NCBI GenBank assembly: GCA_029560455.1
Contig: JAKQKW010000018.1
Location: 1-6,817 of the forward strand
Origin: Candidatus Rifleibacteriota bacterium
GTDB lineage: Bacteria; Riflebacteria; Ozemobacteria; Ozemobacterales; Ozemobacteraceae
Direction: 5' to 3'
DNA: 6,817 nt
This document shows, piece by piece, positions 1 through 6,817 of this stretch (within the stretch, counting starts at the first letter, position 1; each line of letters opens with the position of its first letter). A program made the position numbers and the translations under genes. The notes under the pieces are model-generated. The model saw only the letters and a list, made by a program, of their open reading frames with translations. It was not told where the DNA came from and made no database searches.

Positions 1-1
1 G

Positions 2-577
2 GCTGACATAAATGCGACCAACAACGCCGGGCACACCGCCGTAGTTCATGCCCGCCTGCAGGGCGACAAAGAACGTCTGACCTTCTTGAAACGTACCGGC
101 CGTTTTGGTACCACGCCGCGCAAATTTTACCTGCGCGGCCGCGAAACCAGCATTTTCAAGGCGGTCAAAGATGGTGCGCTCGAAGACATCAGAGAAATAC
201 TTGCCAAGGACCCCAAACAGCTTGAATTTCGCGAGAAAAACCTTTCTGAAAAACCTCTGCACACAGCCGCAGCCACCGGAAACCCCGAAACGGTCAAGCT
301 GCTTGTCGAACTCGGCGCCAACATAAATTGCACCAATGAATTCATGCGCACTCCGATGCATTATGCCGCAGCCGCCGGTCACCTCGACGTGATCAAAATC
401 CTGCATGGCGCCGGCGCCAATCTTCAGGCAGTCGACTTTCGCGGCTCGACACCGCTGCATGACGCCGCCGCCGCAAAGCACCGCAAGGTCTATATCTATC
501 TTCTCGAACTTGATGCCAGCGACACGACCCGTGACAACGCCGGAAAAACTCCCGCCGAACTTTTCAACGAACCCTGA
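2..577 (+). CDS. Ankyrin-repeat protein, 5'-truncated by the window edge
   Basis: The reading frame is open from the first complete codon to the TGA at 575-577, giving 191 visible residues, so the gene begins upstream of the window. A TTG at 86 could be read as a start but lies inside a repeat and is unlikely to be one. Ankyrin repeats are visible in order: one ending ADIN...GHTAVVHA near residues 1-30, a break of about 15 basic and aromatic residues (GRFGTTPRKFYLRGR), then repeats starting near ETSIFKAVKDGA, KPLHTAAATGNPETVKLL, TPMHYAAAAGHLDVIKIL and TPLHDAAAAKHRKVYIYL, and a C-terminal cap AGKTPAELF. The TPLHxAAxxGH and GANIN signatures are textbook ankyrin. Such repeats bind protein partners; no enzymatic domain, signal peptide or membrane segment is visible in this part. 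The partner and cellular location cannot be judged. It precedes the Hsp70 operon but is separated by about 100 bases with a promoter, so it is probably a separate transcription unit. Confidence 0.9.
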   Translation, partial: ADINATNNAGHTAVVHARLQGDKERLTFLKRTGRFGTTPRKFYLRGRETSIFKAVKDGALEDIREILAKDPKQLEFREKNLSEKPLHTAAATGNPETVKLLVELGANINCTNEFMRTPMHYAAAAGHLDVIKILHGAGANLQAVDFRGSTPLHDAAAAKHRKVYIYLLELDASDTTRDNAGKTPAELFNEP

Positions 578-603
578 CAATCTGCCCGCAAATTTATATA
601 GCA

Positions 604-633
604 ATGGCAGAAGGGCAAAAAATCTAGTATAAT
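604..633 (+). promoter_or_regulatory. Predicted sigma-70-type promoter of the DUF2760-Hsp70 operon
   Basis: A perfect TATAAT sits at 628-633. An 18-base spacer separates it from ATGGCA at 604-609, which matches TTGACA at four of six positions. The surrounding DNA is locally AT-rich in contrast to the flanking genes. Transcription would start near 640, giving a leader of about 38 bases before the ATG at 678, where GAGGT at 668-672 serves as ribosome binding site with five bases of spacing. I see no CIRCE element and no sigma-32-like heat-shock promoter here, so classic heat-shock control is not indicated. Confidence 0.6.
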
Positions 634-642
634 TCGGCTTTG

Positions 643-662
643 AAGTAATACCTTTAATACTT
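643..662. promoter_or_regulatory. Imperfect palindrome over the predicted transcription start
   Basis: AAGTAATA (643-650) and TAATACTT (655-662) form an inverted repeat matching at seven of eight positions around a four-base centre. It begins about ten bases after the TATAAT box, covering roughly +3 to +22 of the predicted transcript. That placement suits a repressor operator, or a weak AT-rich hairpin in the leader. Short AT-rich inverted repeats also arise by chance, so this is tentative. Confidence 0.25.
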
Positions 663-677
663 GTTGTGAGGTTCTGA

Positions 678-1856
678 ATGAAGAAAGCTGCAGCTTTTCT
701 GACTTTGATAGCTCTGCTCGCCCTGAGCGGGGGCACCGTTTATCTGCACCAGCGCGAAGCTTCCCCTAATTTCAAAGATCTGCAACCGGCGATCGATAAT
801 CTCAAGGCACTGGTTCCAGAAACCATGCAGATGCCTGCCCTTGCCGGTCTCGGTGTTTTTATTTTTCTGGTTCTGATTCTCTCTCTCGCGGTTCTTTTCG
901 AGCGCCGGCAACCGGCCATTGCAGACACCGTCGCAGCGCCACCGGTTATCCAGCCCGACCCAAAGCAGCTTGAAGAAATTAAGCAACTGCAGAGCCGCCT
1001 CGCCGAAAGCGAAACGGCCACAGCGCTTTTTAAGCGCCAGATAACTGATCTGACCGATGAAAATTCAGGGCTTAAAACCAGAGTCGAAGCTTTAGCCGCC
1101 AGCGCGGTAGACAGCAAAGAACTCGAAGCCGCAAATCAGCGCGTCAAAGACCTTGAAGCCGGGCTGAAAAATGCCGAATCGGCAAAAACTCAAGCTGAAG
1201 CCAATCTGCAGAAAATCAACAGCGAACTGCTTGCCGCCACTGACGAAGCAAAGCGTATCAAGGCCGAGGCTGCGGTTCTCAGCAGCAAAATCGAAAGTTT
1301 CGAAAACGACATGAAGACGACCAAAAAAGAGGCTGACCGGGCTACAGCACAGCTTAAAAATGCTCAGACCGATCTGACCAGAAAAACTGAAGAGGTTGCC
1401 GAATGTCGCAAACAGATCGAGGCGCTTACCGCCGATCTCAAATCTGCTCAGGCAAATCTCAAGGGCGGCAGAGAAGCGATTCCGCCAGCGGCCTACCAGA
1501 TTCTTTACCTTTTCCAGAAAGAAGGCCGCCTCATCGACCTGCTCAGCGAAGATATCTCAGGCCTCGATGACGAAACACTCGGCGGCGCTATCAGGCCAAT
1601 TCACGAAGGCTGTCGCAGACTTCTCGAAGACCGCCTGATTCTCGAACGCGTTCTCAACGAAGAAGAAGGTTCTGTCGTCACCCTCGACGAAGTCGACCCC
1701 GAAGCGGTCAAGCTTTCGGGTCGAGTGCCCGCAGCCGGCCCATACAAGGGCGAACTGATACACCGTGGCTGGCGCCTCAAGGAATGCAACCTGCCGGAAC
1801 TGGTCGACGGCTGGAAAGGCAACGTCATCGCCCCGGCCGAAATCGAAATCAGCTGA
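678..1856 (+). CDS. Membrane-anchored coiled-coil protein with C-terminal DUF2760 domain
   Basis: This 392-residue protein starts with MKKAAAF and a hydrophobic stretch (about residues 4-22), then a loop of about 30 residues and a second hydrophobic helix (about 54-74, GLGVFIFLVLILSLAVLF) followed by ERR. The charges suggest both ends lie in the cytoplasm with a short outward loop; cleavage of the first helix as a signal peptide is the alternative. Residues about 96-261 are rich in Glu, Lys, Ala, Gln and Leu with heptad-like spacing and form a long coiled coil. Residues about 266-392 match DUF2760 as I know it: AAYQILYLFQKEGRLIDLL, then RPIHEGCRRLL, EGSVVTL, LIHRGWR and the closing APAEIEI. 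DUF2760 proteins are uncharacterised and often sit beside unusual Hsp70 genes. There is no J-domain HPD motif. The start is fixed by GAGGT at 668-672. The protein heads a three-gene operon, and I infer that it tethers or regulates the two following Hsp70s at the membrane. Confidence 0.9.
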   Translation: MKKAAAFLTLIALLALSGGTVYLHQREASPNFKDLQPAIDNLKALVPETMQMPALAGLGVFIFLVLILSLAVLFERRQPAIADTVAAPPVIQPDPKQLEEIKQLQSRLAESETATALFKRQITDLTDENSGLKTRVEALAASAVDSKELEAANQRVKDLEAGLKNAESAKTQAEANLQKINSELLAATDEAKRIKAEAAVLSSKIESFENDMKTTKKEADRATAQLKNAQTDLTRKTEEVAECRKQIEALTADLKSAQANLKGGREAIPPAAYQILYLFQKEGRLIDLLSEDISGLDDETLGGAIRPIHEGCRRLLEDRLILERVLNEEEGSVVTLDEVDPEAVKLSGRVPAAGPYKGELIHRGWRLKECNLPELVDGWKGNVIAPAEIEIS

Positions 1857-1860
1857 GGAG
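1856..1860 (+). promoter_or_regulatory. Ribosome binding site that fixes the start of the first Hsp70
   Basis: AGGAG at 1856-1860 overlaps the last base of the TGA stop (1854-1856) of the DUF2760 gene and lies nine bases before the ATG at 1870. It shows that translation of the Hsp70 begins at 1870 and not at an in-frame ATG at 1765, which would add 35 non-homologous residues encoded inside the upstream gene. Confidence 0.85.
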
Positions 1861-1869
1861 AACAGAATT

Positions 1870-3663
1870 ATGGCAAAAGCTAAATACATCGTCGGCATCG
1901 ACCTCGGAACCACCAATATTGTTCTCAGCTACGCTCCACTTGCGGCCGTTGACGGCGAAGAACCGGTTCAGATCAGCCTGCTGCCGATCGTTCAGGAACT
2001 GGCCAAAGGTGCTGTCGAAAAGCTTGAAGTGCTGCCCTCTTTCATCTTCGAAAGACTTAAAGAAAAGCCGGTTCTCACCTGGGAAGACGATTCACAGTAT
2101 ATCGTCGGCGATTATGCCCGCGAGCGTGGCGCTGAAGTGCCTGACCGTCTGATTTCATCAGCAAAATCATGGCTGTGCAACCCGCGCATCGACCGCACTC
2201 AGCCAGTTCTGCCCTGGAACTCGCCCGAAGAAAATGCGAAGATTTCACCGCTCGCCGCCATGGCCATATTTTTGCGCCACGTCAGGCATGCCTGGGCTGA
2301 AGAATTCGCCAAAGAAAAGCTTGAAGACCAGAAGGTAGTCGTAACGATTCCGGCGTCATTCGACGCCGCCGCCCGCGATCTGATCGTCGAAGCAGCCCGT
2401 ATGGCCGGCCTGCCGACCATCACTCTGCTCGAAGAACCTCAGGCCGCTTTTTATTCCTGGATTTCACAGAGCGATAAACCCTGGCGGCAGCAGGTTAAAA
2501 AAGGTGACGTGGTTCTTGTCGTCGACGTTGGCGGCGGTACCAGCGACTTCAGCCTTATCGAAATCAGCGAAGCCGGCGGCGATCTGTCGCTCGAACGCGT
2601 CGCTGTAGGTAACCACATTCTGCTCGGCGGCGACAATATGGATCTCACCCTCGCTTACGTTGCCCGCCGCAAACTTGAAGAAAGCAACAAAAAAATCAGC
2701 CAGTGGCAGACGGTTCAACTCAGCCACCAGTGCCGCAAAGCCAAAGAAACTCTGCTGTCTGACCCGTCAAAAGATTCGGTGCCGATCGTTATTTCGGGCC
2801 GCGGCAGCAGCGTAATCGGCGGTTCAATGAAAACGACGATCGAACGCAGTGATATCGAGCAGACGCTTGTTGACGGCTTTTTCCCGGTCTGCGACATGAA
2901 TGACGACCCGGTCGAAGATACTTCCGGCGGCGTGAGAGAAATCAGTCTGATGTACGCCGCCGACCCCGCAATTACCCGGCATCTGGCCAGATTTTTGCGC
3001 AGCCAGAATTCTACTGACCGACAGTATGGTTTTCCGAAGGCAATTCTTTTCAACGGTGGCGTTTTCCGGTCAGAAATTTTCAGAAACCGGCTGATCGAGG
3101 TCATCAACAAATGGCTTGAAGCCGCCGGAAAAGAAAGCATAAGAGTTCTCGAAGGCATCGAACTGTCGCAGGCAGTTGCCCGCGGCGCCGCCTATTACGG
3201 TATCGCCCGTGAAGGCAAAGGAATCAGAATCAGGGGCGGCGTTTCACAGGCCTACTACCTCGGCATCGAGTCTTCGCTGCCGGCGGTTCCGGGCTTCAAG
3301 CCACCGCTCAAAGCTCTCTGTGTCGCAAAACAGGGCACCGAAGAAGGAACTGTTTCCGATGTTCCCGGCCGCACTTTTGGCCTGGTAATCGGCAAAACTG
3401 CCGAATTCAAGTTCTTCAAATCGAACTGCCGCCGTGAAGACGAGTTTGCCCAGATGGTCGACGAAATCGACGAAACCTTTGAAGACACAAGTTCTCTGCA
3501 GGTCGAACTGCCGGCTTACGAAGGCATGAAAGCCGGCGACCTCGTCGACGTCGGGTTGCAGGTTGCCGTCACCGAAATCGGCACCCTTGAGGTTTACTGC
3601 CTGGCGAAACGTGGCGATCATCGCTGGAAGCTTGAATTCAACGTCAGAGACGCAATGAAGTAA
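1870..3663 (+). CDS. Hsp70-family ATPase without helical lid (first of a tandem pair)
   Basis: This 597-residue protein belongs to the Hsp70/actin-fold ATPases. The start MAKAKYIVGIDLGTTN places the phosphate-1 loop at residues 7-16, as in DnaK. Further motifs are SAKSWLCNPR (Lys99, equivalent to DnaK K70), VTIPASFDAAARD (158-170), EEPQAAFY (188-195; Glu189 equivalent to DnaK E171), VDVGGGTSDFS (218-228; Asp219, Thr224 and Asp226), GGDNMD (253-258), TLVDGFFP, ILFNGGVFRS (392-401; Arg400 at the adenine-clamp position) and ARGAAYYG (437-444). All ATPase residues are therefore intact. A beta-rich segment of about 135 residues (YYLGIES to the C-terminus) resembles a reduced substrate-binding domain. 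The DnaK linker (DVLLLD) is missing, with IRIRGGVSQ in its place, and the protein ends where the helical lid would begin. It is not DnaK itself, nor an obvious HscA, HscC or YegD. It acts in the cytosol, probably with its neighbours; client unknown. Confidence 0.95.
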   Translation: MAKAKYIVGIDLGTTNIVLSYAPLAAVDGEEPVQISLLPIVQELAKGAVEKLEVLPSFIFERLKEKPVLTWEDDSQYIVGDYARERGAEVPDRLISSAKSWLCNPRIDRTQPVLPWNSPEENAKISPLAAMAIFLRHVRHAWAEEFAKEKLEDQKVVVTIPASFDAAARDLIVEAARMAGLPTITLLEEPQAAFYSWISQSDKPWRQQVKKGDVVLVVDVGGGTSDFSLIEISEAGGDLSLERVAVGNHILLGGDNMDLTLAYVARRKLEESNKKISQWQTVQLSHQCRKAKETLLSDPSKDSVPIVISGRGSSVIGGSMKTTIERSDIEQTLVDGFFPVCDMNDDPVEDTSGGVREISLMYAADPAITRHLARFLRSQNSTDRQYGFPKAILFNGGVFRSEIFRNRLIEVINKWLEAAGKESIRVLEGIELSQAVARGAAYYGIAREGKGIRIRGGVSQAYYLGIESSLPAVPGFKPPLKALCVAKQGTEEGTVSDVPGRTFGLVIGKTAEFKFFKSNCRREDEFAQMVDEIDETFEDTSSLQVELPAYEGMKAGDLVDVGLQVAVTEIGTLEVYCLAKRGDHRWKLEFNVRDAMK

Positions 3664-3665
3664 TG
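3661..3665 (+). promoter_or_regulatory. TAATG stop-start overlap between the two Hsp70 genes
   Basis: The TAA stop of the first Hsp70 (3661-3663) shares its final A with the ATG of the second (3663-3665). Upstream there is only a weak purine run (AGAGA at 3646-3650, 12 bases before the ATG), so the second gene probably relies on translational coupling, with ribosomes re-initiating after finishing the first. This would keep the two products in a linked ratio. Confidence 0.8.
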
Positions 3666-6425
3666 AGCAGAGCCAACGCAGCTGATTCTCGCTTTATCAT
3701 CGGCATCGACCTCGGAACCACCCAGTGCGCCCTTTCTTATGTCGATCTTGAAGACAAGAATCTCAAGGTTCGTAATCTCGAAATCACGCAGCTGGTAAGT
3801 GGCGGTATGGTCGAGAACCTGCCAACTCTGCCTTCGGTGATCTATCTCAGCGAAGAAGGGCGTGAGGTCAACCGCCCGGCCTGGATGACCCAGGAAAGCT
3901 TTATCATCGGCGCCTATGCAAAAGAGCTTGGCTTCGAAATACCCGGGCGCTTCGTGCACAGCAGCAAATCATGGCTGTGCCACCCGCGTGCCGAACGGCA
4001 GGCGCCAATTCTGCCGTGGCAGAGCGAAATTGCCGAGCAGAAAATTTCGCCGGTGCAGGCCGCCACCGAATATCTCAAATACATGATCCATCTCTGGGAT
4101 GCCACCATCGGCGCCCAGAATGAATCTTTCGCCTTTCTGCGCCAGAAGGTCATTGTCACGGTGCCGGCTTCCTTTGACCCATCAGCACGCAACCTGACGC
4201 TTGAAGCCATCGAACGGGCCGGTATCAAAGCCGTTTCTCTGATCGAAGAACCACAGGCCGCCTTCTATGATTATCTGCAGCGTAACCCCAAAACCATGGT
4301 CGCCGAGCTTAAGGGTGTCGATACGATTCTCGTCATCGATATCGGCGGCGGCACCACTGACTTCAGCCTGATCAGAATCAACTGGTCGACAGACAAAGAC
4401 TACCCCGAATTTTCGCGACTGGCAGTTGGCCCGCATCTGCTGATCGGCGGCGACAACCTGGATCTGGCGCTGGCACGCAAAGTCGAAGCCGAATTCAAAC
4501 ACCGCGGCCGCAAACTGGCCGGCAAGCAATGGCTCTCGCTGCTCACCCAGAGCCATACAGTCAAAGAGCAGGTATTGTCTGATGAGGTTTCCGGCACGGT
4601 TAATTTCAGTCTGGCCGGCTCAGGCAGCAAAGTGCTTGCTGGTGCTGCAAAAATTGGCCTCAACAGCGAAGAAATCAAAAAAACGCTTGTTGACGGCTTT
4701 TTTCCGCTCGTCGAAGCTGATGAAATGCCTGACGAAGACAACACCCTCGGGCTTTCTGAAGCGGGCCTGCCCTTTACCCGCGATGCGGCAGTAACCCGCC
4801 ACCTGGCAGCCTTTCTGCGCGAAAATGATGTCAGGCCCGATGCCATACTCTTCAACGGCGGCACGATGAAAGCTGACTGCCTGCGTAACCGCCTGTTTGA
4901 AGTGCTGACATTGTGGCGTGGCGCTGAACCCAAGATTCTCGAAAACCCGCACCCGACGCTCGCCGTTGCTGCAGGTGCTGCCTACTACGGTCTTGTGACC
5001 CTCGGCCTCGGGCAGCGCATTCAGAGTGGCAACCCGGTCTCTGTTTATCTCGGCATCGGCACCGCAAAATCATCGACGAACTCGCGACACGTGCCAGAAC
5101 AGCTGATGTGCATTCTGCCAAAGGGTTCTGAGGCCGAAAAAGATTACCACATGGCTGGCAAAACACTCGGCATAGACCTCAGCCGCGACTCGGCCTTTTA
5201 TCTTTTCTACACGCCGGCACCGCCAAAAGCAGAAGAAAGCGGCCGCCTGATCAAGTTCAACTCAAAACGTTACCTGCCGCTGCCGCCCTGTATTCTCAAG
5301 GCCCGCACCAGCAAAGGCGAAAAACAGGTCGAAATCAGGGTCAGACTGCGTGAAACCGGCTATCTGCAGATGTTCTGCGAAGAAATCGACGGCAGTTTTT
5401 CACAGGAACTGCGCTTCGATCTCGGCGAAAGCGAAAAAGCCGGCAAGGGCGCAGCTGAAGCCCCGGCAAAGCGGCGTGTACCGCTCACCAGCACGCAGCT
5501 GAAAAAGATCGACCAGCTGCTCGACCAGGCTTTTGCCGGCAAAATCGAGTTCAATGCTGTATTCAAAGAACTTGAAGGCATTATTGGTTCGCCACGCACC
5601 AACTGGGATGCAGAAATGCTGCGCCAGCTCTTCGACCTGTTCATCGAGCACGAAAAAGAATTCAGAAAAAGCCAGAGTTCGCTGGTGATCTGGTTCAGAT
5701 TGCTCGGGTTTTGTCTGCGGCCCGGTTTCGGAGTCGCGGGCGACGTCGACCGTGTCGACCGCGTCTGGAAAATGATCGATGATCAGTATGACTTCAGCAA
5801 CGCCGAATTCTGGTCAGACTGGTGGATAATGTGGAAACGCATCGCGCCCGGCCTGTCGCTCGAACGCCAGGAAGCGCTCAAAAACCGCCTTGAACCGGTT
5901 CTGTTTCAGACAAAACGCCGCGAAAAGCGTGACCGAGAGATCGGCCAGCATGAGCGCAACCAGCTCTGGCGACTGCTTGGGCATCTTGAACGGCTTTCGG
6001 TTGCCGAAAAAGAACGCATCGGCTGGTGGATCATCAAGGCACCGCCAAGTTACGGCGTCGACGCAGTCGCACTTTCGGCTCTGGCCCGCCTCGGAGCACG
6101 AGAACTTGCCTATGCCCCTGATACGGCGATGGTTTCGCAGTCGGTTGCCAATGCCTGGGCAGAACAGCTGCTGAAAAAGGCAATTCCAGGCAATTCATAT
6201 CTCGACACCGCCCTGCGCGAAATCGGCCGAAAAACCGGCGACCGGCTGGTTCAGATAGATGATCTGCTGCGCAAAAATATTCTCGAGGTTTTTAAAAAGA
6301 AGTTGCGCAAAAAAGCCTTTATTCAGCCACTGCTGAAAGCCGCACGTCTTGAAGAAAAAGAACTCACCGAAATTGTCGGCGAAGCACTGCCATCGGGCTT
6401 CGTCTGGGTCAAAGACAGCGTCTGA
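3663..6425 (+). CDS. Hsp70-family ATPase with C-terminal DUF3731-like helical domain
   Basis: This 920-residue protein is a paralogue of the preceding one plus about 310 extra residues. Its ATPase half has FIIGIDLGTTQ (phosphate 1, to residue 21), SSKSWLCHPR (Lys102), VTVPASFD (165-172), IEEPQAAFYDY (Glu196), IDIGGGTTDFS (Asp226, Thr231, Asp233), GGDNLD (262-267), TLVDGFFP, ILFNGGTMK (395-403) and AAGAAYYG (436-443). The adenine-clamp Arg of DnaK's GGxxR is Lys403 here. A beta-rich segment (about 461-588, starting VYLGIGT) follows without the DnaK-type linker. After an Ala/Lys/Glu-rich hinge (about 589-606), residues 607-920 are mainly helical and Trp-rich. The stretch LGFCLRPGFG, then RVWKMI, then EFWSDWWIMWKRIAPGL matches the DUF3731 family found C-terminal to Hsp70 domains; its function is unknown. 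The domain sits where an Hsp70 lid would be. Start choice follows the TAATG overlap. It is likely co-produced with the lidless partner and may form a pair with it. Confidence 0.93.
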   Translation: MSRANAADSRFIIGIDLGTTQCALSYVDLEDKNLKVRNLEITQLVSGGMVENLPTLPSVIYLSEEGREVNRPAWMTQESFIIGAYAKELGFEIPGRFVHSSKSWLCHPRAERQAPILPWQSEIAEQKISPVQAATEYLKYMIHLWDATIGAQNESFAFLRQKVIVTVPASFDPSARNLTLEAIERAGIKAVSLIEEPQAAFYDYLQRNPKTMVAELKGVDTILVIDIGGGTTDFSLIRINWSTDKDYPEFSRLAVGPHLLIGGDNLDLALARKVEAEFKHRGRKLAGKQWLSLLTQSHTVKEQVLSDEVSGTVNFSLAGSGSKVLAGAAKIGLNSEEIKKTLVDGFFPLVEADEMPDEDNTLGLSEAGLPFTRDAAVTRHLAAFLRENDVRPDAILFNGGTMKADCLRNRLFEVLTLWRGAEPKILENPHPTLAVAAGAAYYGLVTLGLGQRIQSGNPVSVYLGIGTAKSSTNSRHVPEQLMCILPKGSEAEKDYHMAGKTLGIDLSRDSAFYLFYTPAPPKAEESGRLIKFNSKRYLPLPPCILKARTSKGEKQVEIRVRLRETGYLQMFCEEIDGSFSQELRFDLGESEKAGKGAAEAPAKRRVPLTSTQLKKIDQLLDQAFAGKIEFNAVFKELEGIIGSPRTNWDAEMLRQLFDLFIEHEKEFRKSQSSLVIWFRLLGFCLRPGFGVAGDVDRVDRVWKMIDDQYDFSNAEFWSDWWIMWKRIAPGLSLERQEALKNRLEPVLFQTKRREKRDREIGQHERNQLWRLLGHLERLSVAEKERIGWWIIKAPPSYGVDAVALSALARLGARELAYAPDTAMVSQSVANAWAEQLLKKAIPGNSYLDTALREIGRKTGDRLVQIDDLLRKNILEVFKKKLRKKAFIQPLLKAARLEEKELTEIVGEALPSGFVWVKDSV

Positions 6426-6478
6426 CAATTATCGCGGCCATCGAGCCCCCTGCAAGGTTGTTGGGTCTGCCGAAGCTG

Positions 6479-6494
6479 CTGAAGAACGCTTCAG
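6479..6494. terminator. Possible weak terminator hairpin between convergent genes
   Basis: CTGAAG (6479-6484) and CTTCAG (6489-6494) form a perfect six-base stem with an AACG loop. A competing stem uses AACGC/GCGTT around the same centre (6485-6499), followed by a short T run. The hairpin overlaps the stop codon of the convergent cyclase gene and lies 54 bases after the operon's stop. No long U tract follows in either direction, so termination here would be weak or Rho-assisted. The rest of the 65-base gap 6426-6490 shows no gene or other signal I can support. Confidence 0.3.
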
Positions 6495-6817
6495 GCGTTT
6501 TCGCTCTTGAGTTTTATCAGCTCGAAAATTTTGACTGCCTGCTGTTTGCCACGGATTTCGGTGAACGGCATTTCCTCGGCCTCAACAAGGTGACTGACAA
6601 GGTTATGGGTAGCGCCAGAAAAGATGATTTTTGAATGGCGACCTTTCTTTGAAGCGCTCTCAAGGCGAGAAGCGAGATTGACTTCGTCGCCGATGACCGT
6701 CAGGTCTTTGCGGCGGGAACTGCCGACATCGCCAAGCAGAACGGTACCTGTGCTGATACCGATACCGATGTTGATATTGAAAAGGCCAAGACTGGTACGA
6801 TTCTGATTCAGCTTTTT
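6491..6817 (-). CDS. Class III adenylate/guanylate cyclase, C-terminal part (cut by window edge)
   Basis: Reading the - strand from 6817 gives 108 residues ending at TGA (6493-6491). The frame is open at the window edge, so the N-terminal part lies outside. The segment GIGISTGTVLLGDVGSSRR followed by DLTVIGDEVNLASRLESAS is the signature second half of a class III nucleotide cyclase domain, which makes cAMP or cGMP from ATP or GTP. The transition-state pair is present: Asn in EVNLA (6677-6679) and Arg in ASRLE (6665-6667). At the position of the base-recognising Asp of class IIIa enzymes there is Thr (DLTVIGD), as is known for class IIIb cyclases, so adenylate cyclase activity is favoured. The tail FTEIRGKQQAVKIFELIK is the usual end of bacterial cyclase domains that finish the protein. 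Sensor domains cannot be seen. It is convergent with the Hsp70 operon, so co-transcription is excluded. Confidence 0.92.
   Translation of the reverse strand, partial: KKLNQNRTSLGLFNINIGIGISTGTVLLGDVGSSRRKDLTVIGDEVNLASRLESASKKGRHSKIIFSGATHNLVSHLVEAEEMPFTEIRGKQQAVKIFELIKLKSENA

Follow-up and report, generated by a model that had tools for sequence, protein, structure and literature searches.

The locus considered here consists of three adjacent genes on one strand of a 6,817-nucleotide stretch of Candidatus Rifleibacteriota bacterium DNA (assembly GCA_029560455.1, contig JAKQKW010000018.1, positions 1 to 6,817; hereafter the window), which encode a DUF2760 protein (g1), a short Hsp70 (g2) and an Hsp70 with a C-terminal DUF3731 domain (g3). 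The question it raises is whether these products constitute a chaperone system of their own or are accessory members of the known Hsp70 repertoire. On balance, and with moderate confidence, our analysis favours a dedicated and so far undescribed Hsp70 machine that is distinct from DnaK and HscA and is tethered and controlled by DUF2760; we infer that the three products would act as a single complex, independently of J-proteins and on a client. Neither DUF2760 nor DUF3731 was mentioned, singly or jointly, in the searched literature, from which subscription journals were mostly absent, and the available text of a 2021 review (PMC8215388) lists three prokaryotic Hsp70 types (DnaK, HscA and HscC) and contains no words beginning with "DUF".

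Scanning of species genomes with a g3 alignment returned at least 593 stretches, at least 544 of them with a relative, and the best 80 loci were kept. The order g1-g2-g3 on one strand was found at 51 of these 80 loci, comprising 45 of the 65 that had sufficient DNA upstream, as scored by script, and 6 of the 15 shorter ones, as read from their gene lists; the other arrangements among the 65 were g3 alone (16 loci), g2-g3 (2) and g1-g3 (2). When the 29 genomes behind the incomplete loci were searched whole, g2 was recovered in 26 and DUF2760 in 26. The 26 genomes with g2 all had g3 as well, 23 of them had DUF2760, and the three that did not (G210, G225 and G229) have a g2 that begins no more than 106 bases from a contig end. 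Exactly two matches, g2 and g3, were obtained in 24 of these 26 genomes; of the two with three matches, one (G223) has a g2 broken by a stop and the other (G022) has two partial g2 sequences at contig ends that overlap in the query and are perhaps two copies. Five planctomycete genomes (G005, G211, G215, G224 and G231) possessed all three genes on separate contigs or far apart, with no g2 in the 9 kb upstream of g3 or in the 1.5 kb on either side of g1. Counting the 51 ordered loci and the 26 genomes just described, g2 and g3 share a genome in 77 of 80 cases.

Co-occurrence was also surveyed across three phyla. In the phylum of Riflebacteria genome G001 (39 genomes) DUF3731 was present in 31, DUF2760 in 29 and both in 28, and the corresponding values were 11, 12 and 11 for the phylum of Vibrio (150 genomes) and 14, 15 and 14 for that of Zavarzinella (119 genomes). 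Genes for both families shared a contig and a strand within about 8 kb in 10 of the 11 Vibrio-phylum genomes and within about 6 kb in 7 of the 14 Zavarzinella-phylum genomes. Summed over the 308 genomes, both families occurred in 53, one only in 6 and neither in 249, and fourteen control genomes had neither. The initial annotation had proposed that the DUF2760, DUF3731 and Hsp70 genes make up one dedicated chaperone machine, to be abandoned if the families mostly occurred apart; the reverse was found, as the set is retained even where its genes are scattered. These counts demonstrate that the three genes are passed on together, through linkage or, where scattered, through retention. Pairwise distances among g1, g2 and g3 correlated at 0.90–0.96 over 38 loci (permutation maximum 0.29), the expected outcome when genes move or are inherited jointly. 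One DUF2760 protein (43% identity) was also encountered in a protist data set (Anaeramoba ignava), where a bacterial symbiont or contaminant is the likely source.

Both g2 and g3 belong to the Hsp70 superfamily, as each has an actin-like nucleotide-binding domain (NBD) with the catalytic positions, followed by the beta part of the substrate-binding domain (SBD-beta). Pfam matched both to PF00012 (g2, E 1.3e-21; g3, E 9.2e-16), and their identity of 35.7%, with g2 residues 2-597 aligned to g3 residues 7-592, identifies them as paralogues. The catalytic residues D16, K102, E196, D226, T231 and D233 of g3 were invariant in the 80 rows of its family alignment, as were D11, K99, E189, D219, T224 and D226 of g2 in 44 rows. 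Positions were placed via alignment to DnaK; apart from K70 and R167, the numbers given to DnaK residues are assumed. The description of the pair as paralogous Hsp70s with intact ATPase residues is therefore upheld, and "lidless" is true of g2, which stops after SBD-beta at the equivalent of g3 residue 592 and so lacks the helical lid (SBD-alpha), and of g3 in the sense that its lid is replaced by DUF3731. The latter domain (residues 676-913) matched PF12531 at E 1.5e-57 (195.8 bits against a gathering score of 25) and, scanned alone against Pfam, matched PF12531 and no other family. The g3 model comprises a DnaK-like NBD and SBD-beta with DUF3731 occupying the lid position; matches in the g3 structure search cover residues 8-588 only. 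Neither protein reached the curated NCBIfam cut-offs for HscA (84 bits against 709 for g2, 73 against 620 for g3) or for DnaK (70 and 54 bits, respectively, against 648).

A tree was built from 47 NBDs, namely 17 g2, 17 g3 and 13 of the 22 other Hsp70s identified in the same genomes, covering the window and 16 of the 80 loci, with no named HscC among its sequences. The g2 and g3 sequences formed one branch (100/100) apart from the 13 comparison Hsp70s, ten of which carry the LLLD linker, on a stem of 3.36 changes per column. Within it g2 was a single branch (99/100) that extends over eight phyla; for g3 as a single clade the tree needs two changes, but one clade was not rejected (approximately unbiased test, p = 0.136), and g2 may have arisen inside g3. 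Some groups (Pseudomonadota; Planctomycetota with Lentisphaerota) recur in both the g2 and the g3 subtree, which suggests that g2 and g3 were separated by an old duplication that preceded their spread over the eight sampled phyla. The retention of two diverged paralogues in 77 of 80 cases could also be read as a pair resembling Hsp110 and Hsp70: g2 and g3 would face one another, with one of them serving as nucleotide exchange factor for the other. Over 38 loci, g2 and g3 distances do show a correlation of 0.955 (permutation maximum, 0.262), a value that common descent alone would also give, but three genomes retain g3 without any g2, and we give this arrangement a slim chance.

The C-terminal domain of g1 matched PF10816 (DUF2760; residues 271-390) at E 1.1e-36 and 125.8 bits against a gathering score of 25, and long helices at residues 95-141 and 146-261 make up the coiled coil in its predicted model. 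Together with two hydrophobic segments, these features agree with the designation of g1 as a membrane coiled-coil DUF2760 protein. Among 54 DUF2760 proteins, 30 have one to three hydrophobic segments and 24 have no transmembrane segment; of the latter, 16 have an amphipathic N-terminal helix (no more than 10 of 200 shuffles reached the same value) and 8 also fail the threshold for an amphipathic N-terminus. Membrane association of g1, as judged from sequence, is thus likely in most lineages. Neither the whole protein nor the DUF2760 domain alone matched DnaJ in Pfam, and hence no J-domain was detected. The C-terminal pattern and coiled coil had prompted the idea that DUF2760 may be a GrpE-like exchange factor, for which the comparisons gave no support: hhalign of DUF2760 against GrpE gave E 0.12 (reversed control, 0.32), and a GrpE profile run against 121 DUF2760 proteins gave a best E of 0.58 and no significant match. 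GrpE was also absent from the g1 fold search, which was dominated by the coiled coil, so that this absence excludes nothing. Riflebacteria genome G001 carries a normal grpE and two weak GrpE matches inside long frames of 717 and 522 aa (L106, L108).

The available text of PMC8215388 states that the interdomain linker and R167 of DnaK touch the J-domain. The linker motif D[VI]LLLD (VKDVLLLD in DnaK) was found by pattern in 0 of 55 g2 and 0 of 81 g3 sequences, against 10 of the 22 other Hsp70s, drawn from eight of these genomes, of which 15 had LLLD. The asparagine of the R-I-I-N-E-P motif (N170) was replaced by glutamate in 80 of 80 g3 and 44 of 44 g2 alignment rows. The absent linker and this substitution make ordinary J-domain coupling doubtful. 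Loss of the J-domain contact is not clean, because 13 of 80 g3 and 3 of 44 g2 alignment rows still have arginine at the R167 position (22 of 76 g3 and 0 of 48 g2 by sequence pattern; the pattern overlooked 7 g2 and 5 g3, one of its 81 "g3" is a g2, and the motif count was accordingly repeated on alignment columns). These retained arginines, the intact ATPase residues and the presence of GrpE in all 22 genomes tested are consistent with g2 and g3 being ordinary accessory Hsp70s, that is, specialised paralogues that use the DnaJ-type J-proteins and GrpE of the cell, with DUF2760 as a mere client or adaptor. The missing linker, the invariant glutamate and the separate long branch argue in the other direction, as does the absence of a J-domain motif from all flanking open reading frames (ORFs) of the 80 loci, by a pattern that detects only 5 of 10 control dnaK loci; overall we consider this alternative unlikely. 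A separate observation concerns planctomycete genome G007 (L142, L148, L150-L153), in which eight matches to Hsp70 reach E <= 1e-40 and some of these lie in reading frames 670-1000 aa long; aspartate replaces the arginine before the NEP motif in five, and LLLD is missing in six.

The mechanism that we envisage for a dedicated machine has DUF2760 as its obligate co-factor. The N-terminus and coiled coil of g1 would tether the Hsp70s to the cytoplasmic membrane on its inner side, and its C-terminal domain would bind the NBDs and control the ATP cycle instead of a J-protein or nucleotide exchange factor. The protein g3, with DUF3731 in the lid position, would be the main client-holding ATPase, and g2 would be an auxiliary ATPase, presumably lost in some Desulfobacterales. 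A bolder interpretation, which we hold tentatively and as less probable than the machine itself, is that lidless and DUF3731-lidded ATPases from one ancient duplication represent a further class of bacterial Hsp70 without J-domain proteins, whose cycle is run by DUF2760 as a membrane-associated non-J co-factor. The initial annotation had the three products as one complex with both ATPases anchored to the membrane: co-inheritance of the module agrees with this, the DUF2760 proteins without a transmembrane segment and the genomes without g2 do not, and both the complex and its location may be put forward as conjecture.

Several observations weigh against a dedicated three-component machine. The 80 loci were the closest among at least 544 and do not represent a random sample. 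Three Desulfobacterales genomes (G232-G234; L014, L033 and L065) have g1 followed directly by g3 and no g2 anywhere; this trio is the one clear exception, and all of it falls in one order. Absence of the linker is not unique to g2 and g3, as LLLD is also missing in 7 of the 22 other Hsp70s, and LLLD occurs somewhere in 3 of 55 g2 and 12 of 81 g3 sequences, four g3 having it slightly downstream of the linker. The arginines retained at the R167 position belong here as well. Finally, no known fold or relative was recognised for the DUF2760 domain in this analysis, which makes its role as a regulator of the NBDs a guess. As an observation in its own right, the Desulfobacterales pair of g1 and g3 is a natural two-gene version that could show the contribution of g2.

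Alternatively, the set may be regulatory and not a folding apparatus: at the membrane, the ATPases would bind a single protein of signalling or export and would control stationary-phase, polysaccharide or biofilm behaviour, much as is done in Myxococcus by StkA, which is a different Hsp70. VC1373, VC1374 and VC1375 of Vibrio cholerae are presumably g3, g2 and g1, respectively, judging from annotation and gene order in other Vibrio. The accessible parts of the sources report that HapR is an activator of the VC1375 promoter, both in vivo and in vitro (PMC10328515), that VC1374 of the operon VC1373-1375 is among the in-biofilm-repressed genes (PMC9201469), and that VC1373 and VC1374 are present in two transcriptome tables (PMC5816637, PMC5636140). 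If VC1375 is taken as the DUF2760 gene, the first two reports speak for regulation; this support consists of expression data only. No neighbour at a fixed place points to one pathway: among the 25 largest clusters of flanking ORFs at the 80 loci none recurred at a fixed place, and the largest (16, 11 and 8 loci) sit at scattered places and strands. We regard a regulatory role as quite unlikely. In Myxococcus, MXAN_5323 (925 aa, cd10170) may be a g3, going by length only, and its deletion, like that of three other non-DnaK hsp70 genes, reduced sporulation and oxidative resistance according to the available text of PMC8265645.

In contrast to DnaK, HscA and HscC, it lacks the helical lid and the D-V-LLLD linker, has glutamate for the asparagine of the NEP motif, and keeps two paralogues with DUF2760. 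The StkA-StkB-StkC locus of Myxococcus xanthus, as described in the available portion of PMC4319316, is similar in having a non-heat-shock Hsp70 in a three-gene locus, with StkA affecting a cell-surface trait, but StkA has 540 aa and SCP2-like and PhaE-like partners, whereas the partners in the module are DUF2760 and a second Hsp70. StkA was ruled out as a member of the module, as its partner genes differ. Escherichia coli HscC with its membrane J-proteins DjlB and DjlC likewise combines a specialised Hsp70 with a membrane-bound partner (available text of PMC8215388), yet DjlB and DjlC have J-domains and DUF2760 has none detectable by Pfam. Yeast Hsp110 (Sse1) and Ssz1, which are paired or atypical Hsp70s, were both present in the g3 fold search, ranked below DnaK.

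At the locus itself (Table 1), the ORF calls reproduced the three genes with a 13-base gap (1857-1869) between g1 and g2 and a one-base overlap, base 3663 being common to the g2 stop and the g3 start. A longer GTG start for g2 at 1765 falls within g1 and is not followed by close homologues, nearly all of which have about 597 aa. The claim that the genes lie behind one promoter gained no support, as two promoter-like sites were observed in the window against 2.3 expected by shuffling; because the site upstream of g1 is no better than chance, it is gene spacing that argues for co-transcription. The six nearest g3 proteins are 88-98% identical to that of the window, and two are named Candidatus Riflebacteria or Rifleibacterium. 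One record titled Candidatus Methylomirabilis (L001) has a g3 73% identical to the window in a Riflebacteria-like set and is probably a mis-binned contig.

Table 1. Features of the window, with nucleotide positions unless residues are stated.
Feature	Position	Strand	Basis or remark
g1, DUF2760 protein, 392 aa	678..1856	+	ORF, Pfam, predicted model, hydrophobic segments
g1, hydrophobic segments	residues 3-24, 48-78		
g1, coiled coil	residues 95-261		
g1, DUF2760 domain	residues 271-390		
g2, short Hsp70 (NBD and SBD-beta equivalent, no lid), 597 aa	1870..3663	+	ATG start
g3, Hsp70 (NBD and SBD-beta) with C-terminal DUF3731 helical domain (residues 676-913), 920 aa	3663..6425	+	
Promoter-like ATGGCA-18-TATAAT	604..633	+	not above chance expectation
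Ankyrin-repeat gene	2-577		upstream of g1
Adenylate/guanylate cyclase domain, C-terminal part	6491-6817	-	convergent with operon

Searches of mobile elements returned g3 in 0 of 50,697 phage records and matches in 11 of 72,556 plasmid records; these 11 are 0.1-3.5 Mb long, and one of them, from Thiodictyon, matched through a g2 only. A role in anti-phage defence was considered and rejected: PADLOC gave coiled-coil matches for g1 and short PDC-M61B matches to the ATPase region of g2 and g3, none of which covers the protein. On Thiodictyon plasmid pTs485 (L156 5321-7839) the DUF2760 gene and the short Hsp70 gene sit among anti-phage, VapC-toxin and TIR genes, and g3 is not on the plasmid. Bradyrhizobium plasmid pCB82_1 carries the whole three-gene set, followed about 1 kb later by groES-groEL. 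Annotation on two plasmids reads "DUF2760 domain-containing protein", "Hsp70 family protein" and "hsp70 family protein".

In summary, the module adds to the three prokaryotic types listed in the available text of the review (PMC8215388) an old, separate Hsp70 branch in eight phyla, characterized by a kept pair of ATPases that lack the standard linker and lid and by a dedicated partner other than a J-protein. As the genes occur in tractable, harmless bacteria, with the operon present in Cupriavidus necator (L074) and Methylotuvimicrobium buryatense 5G (L020), the question is testable now. If it is true that DUF2760 runs the ATPase cycle, the module would represent a way to drive Hsp70 without a J-domain.

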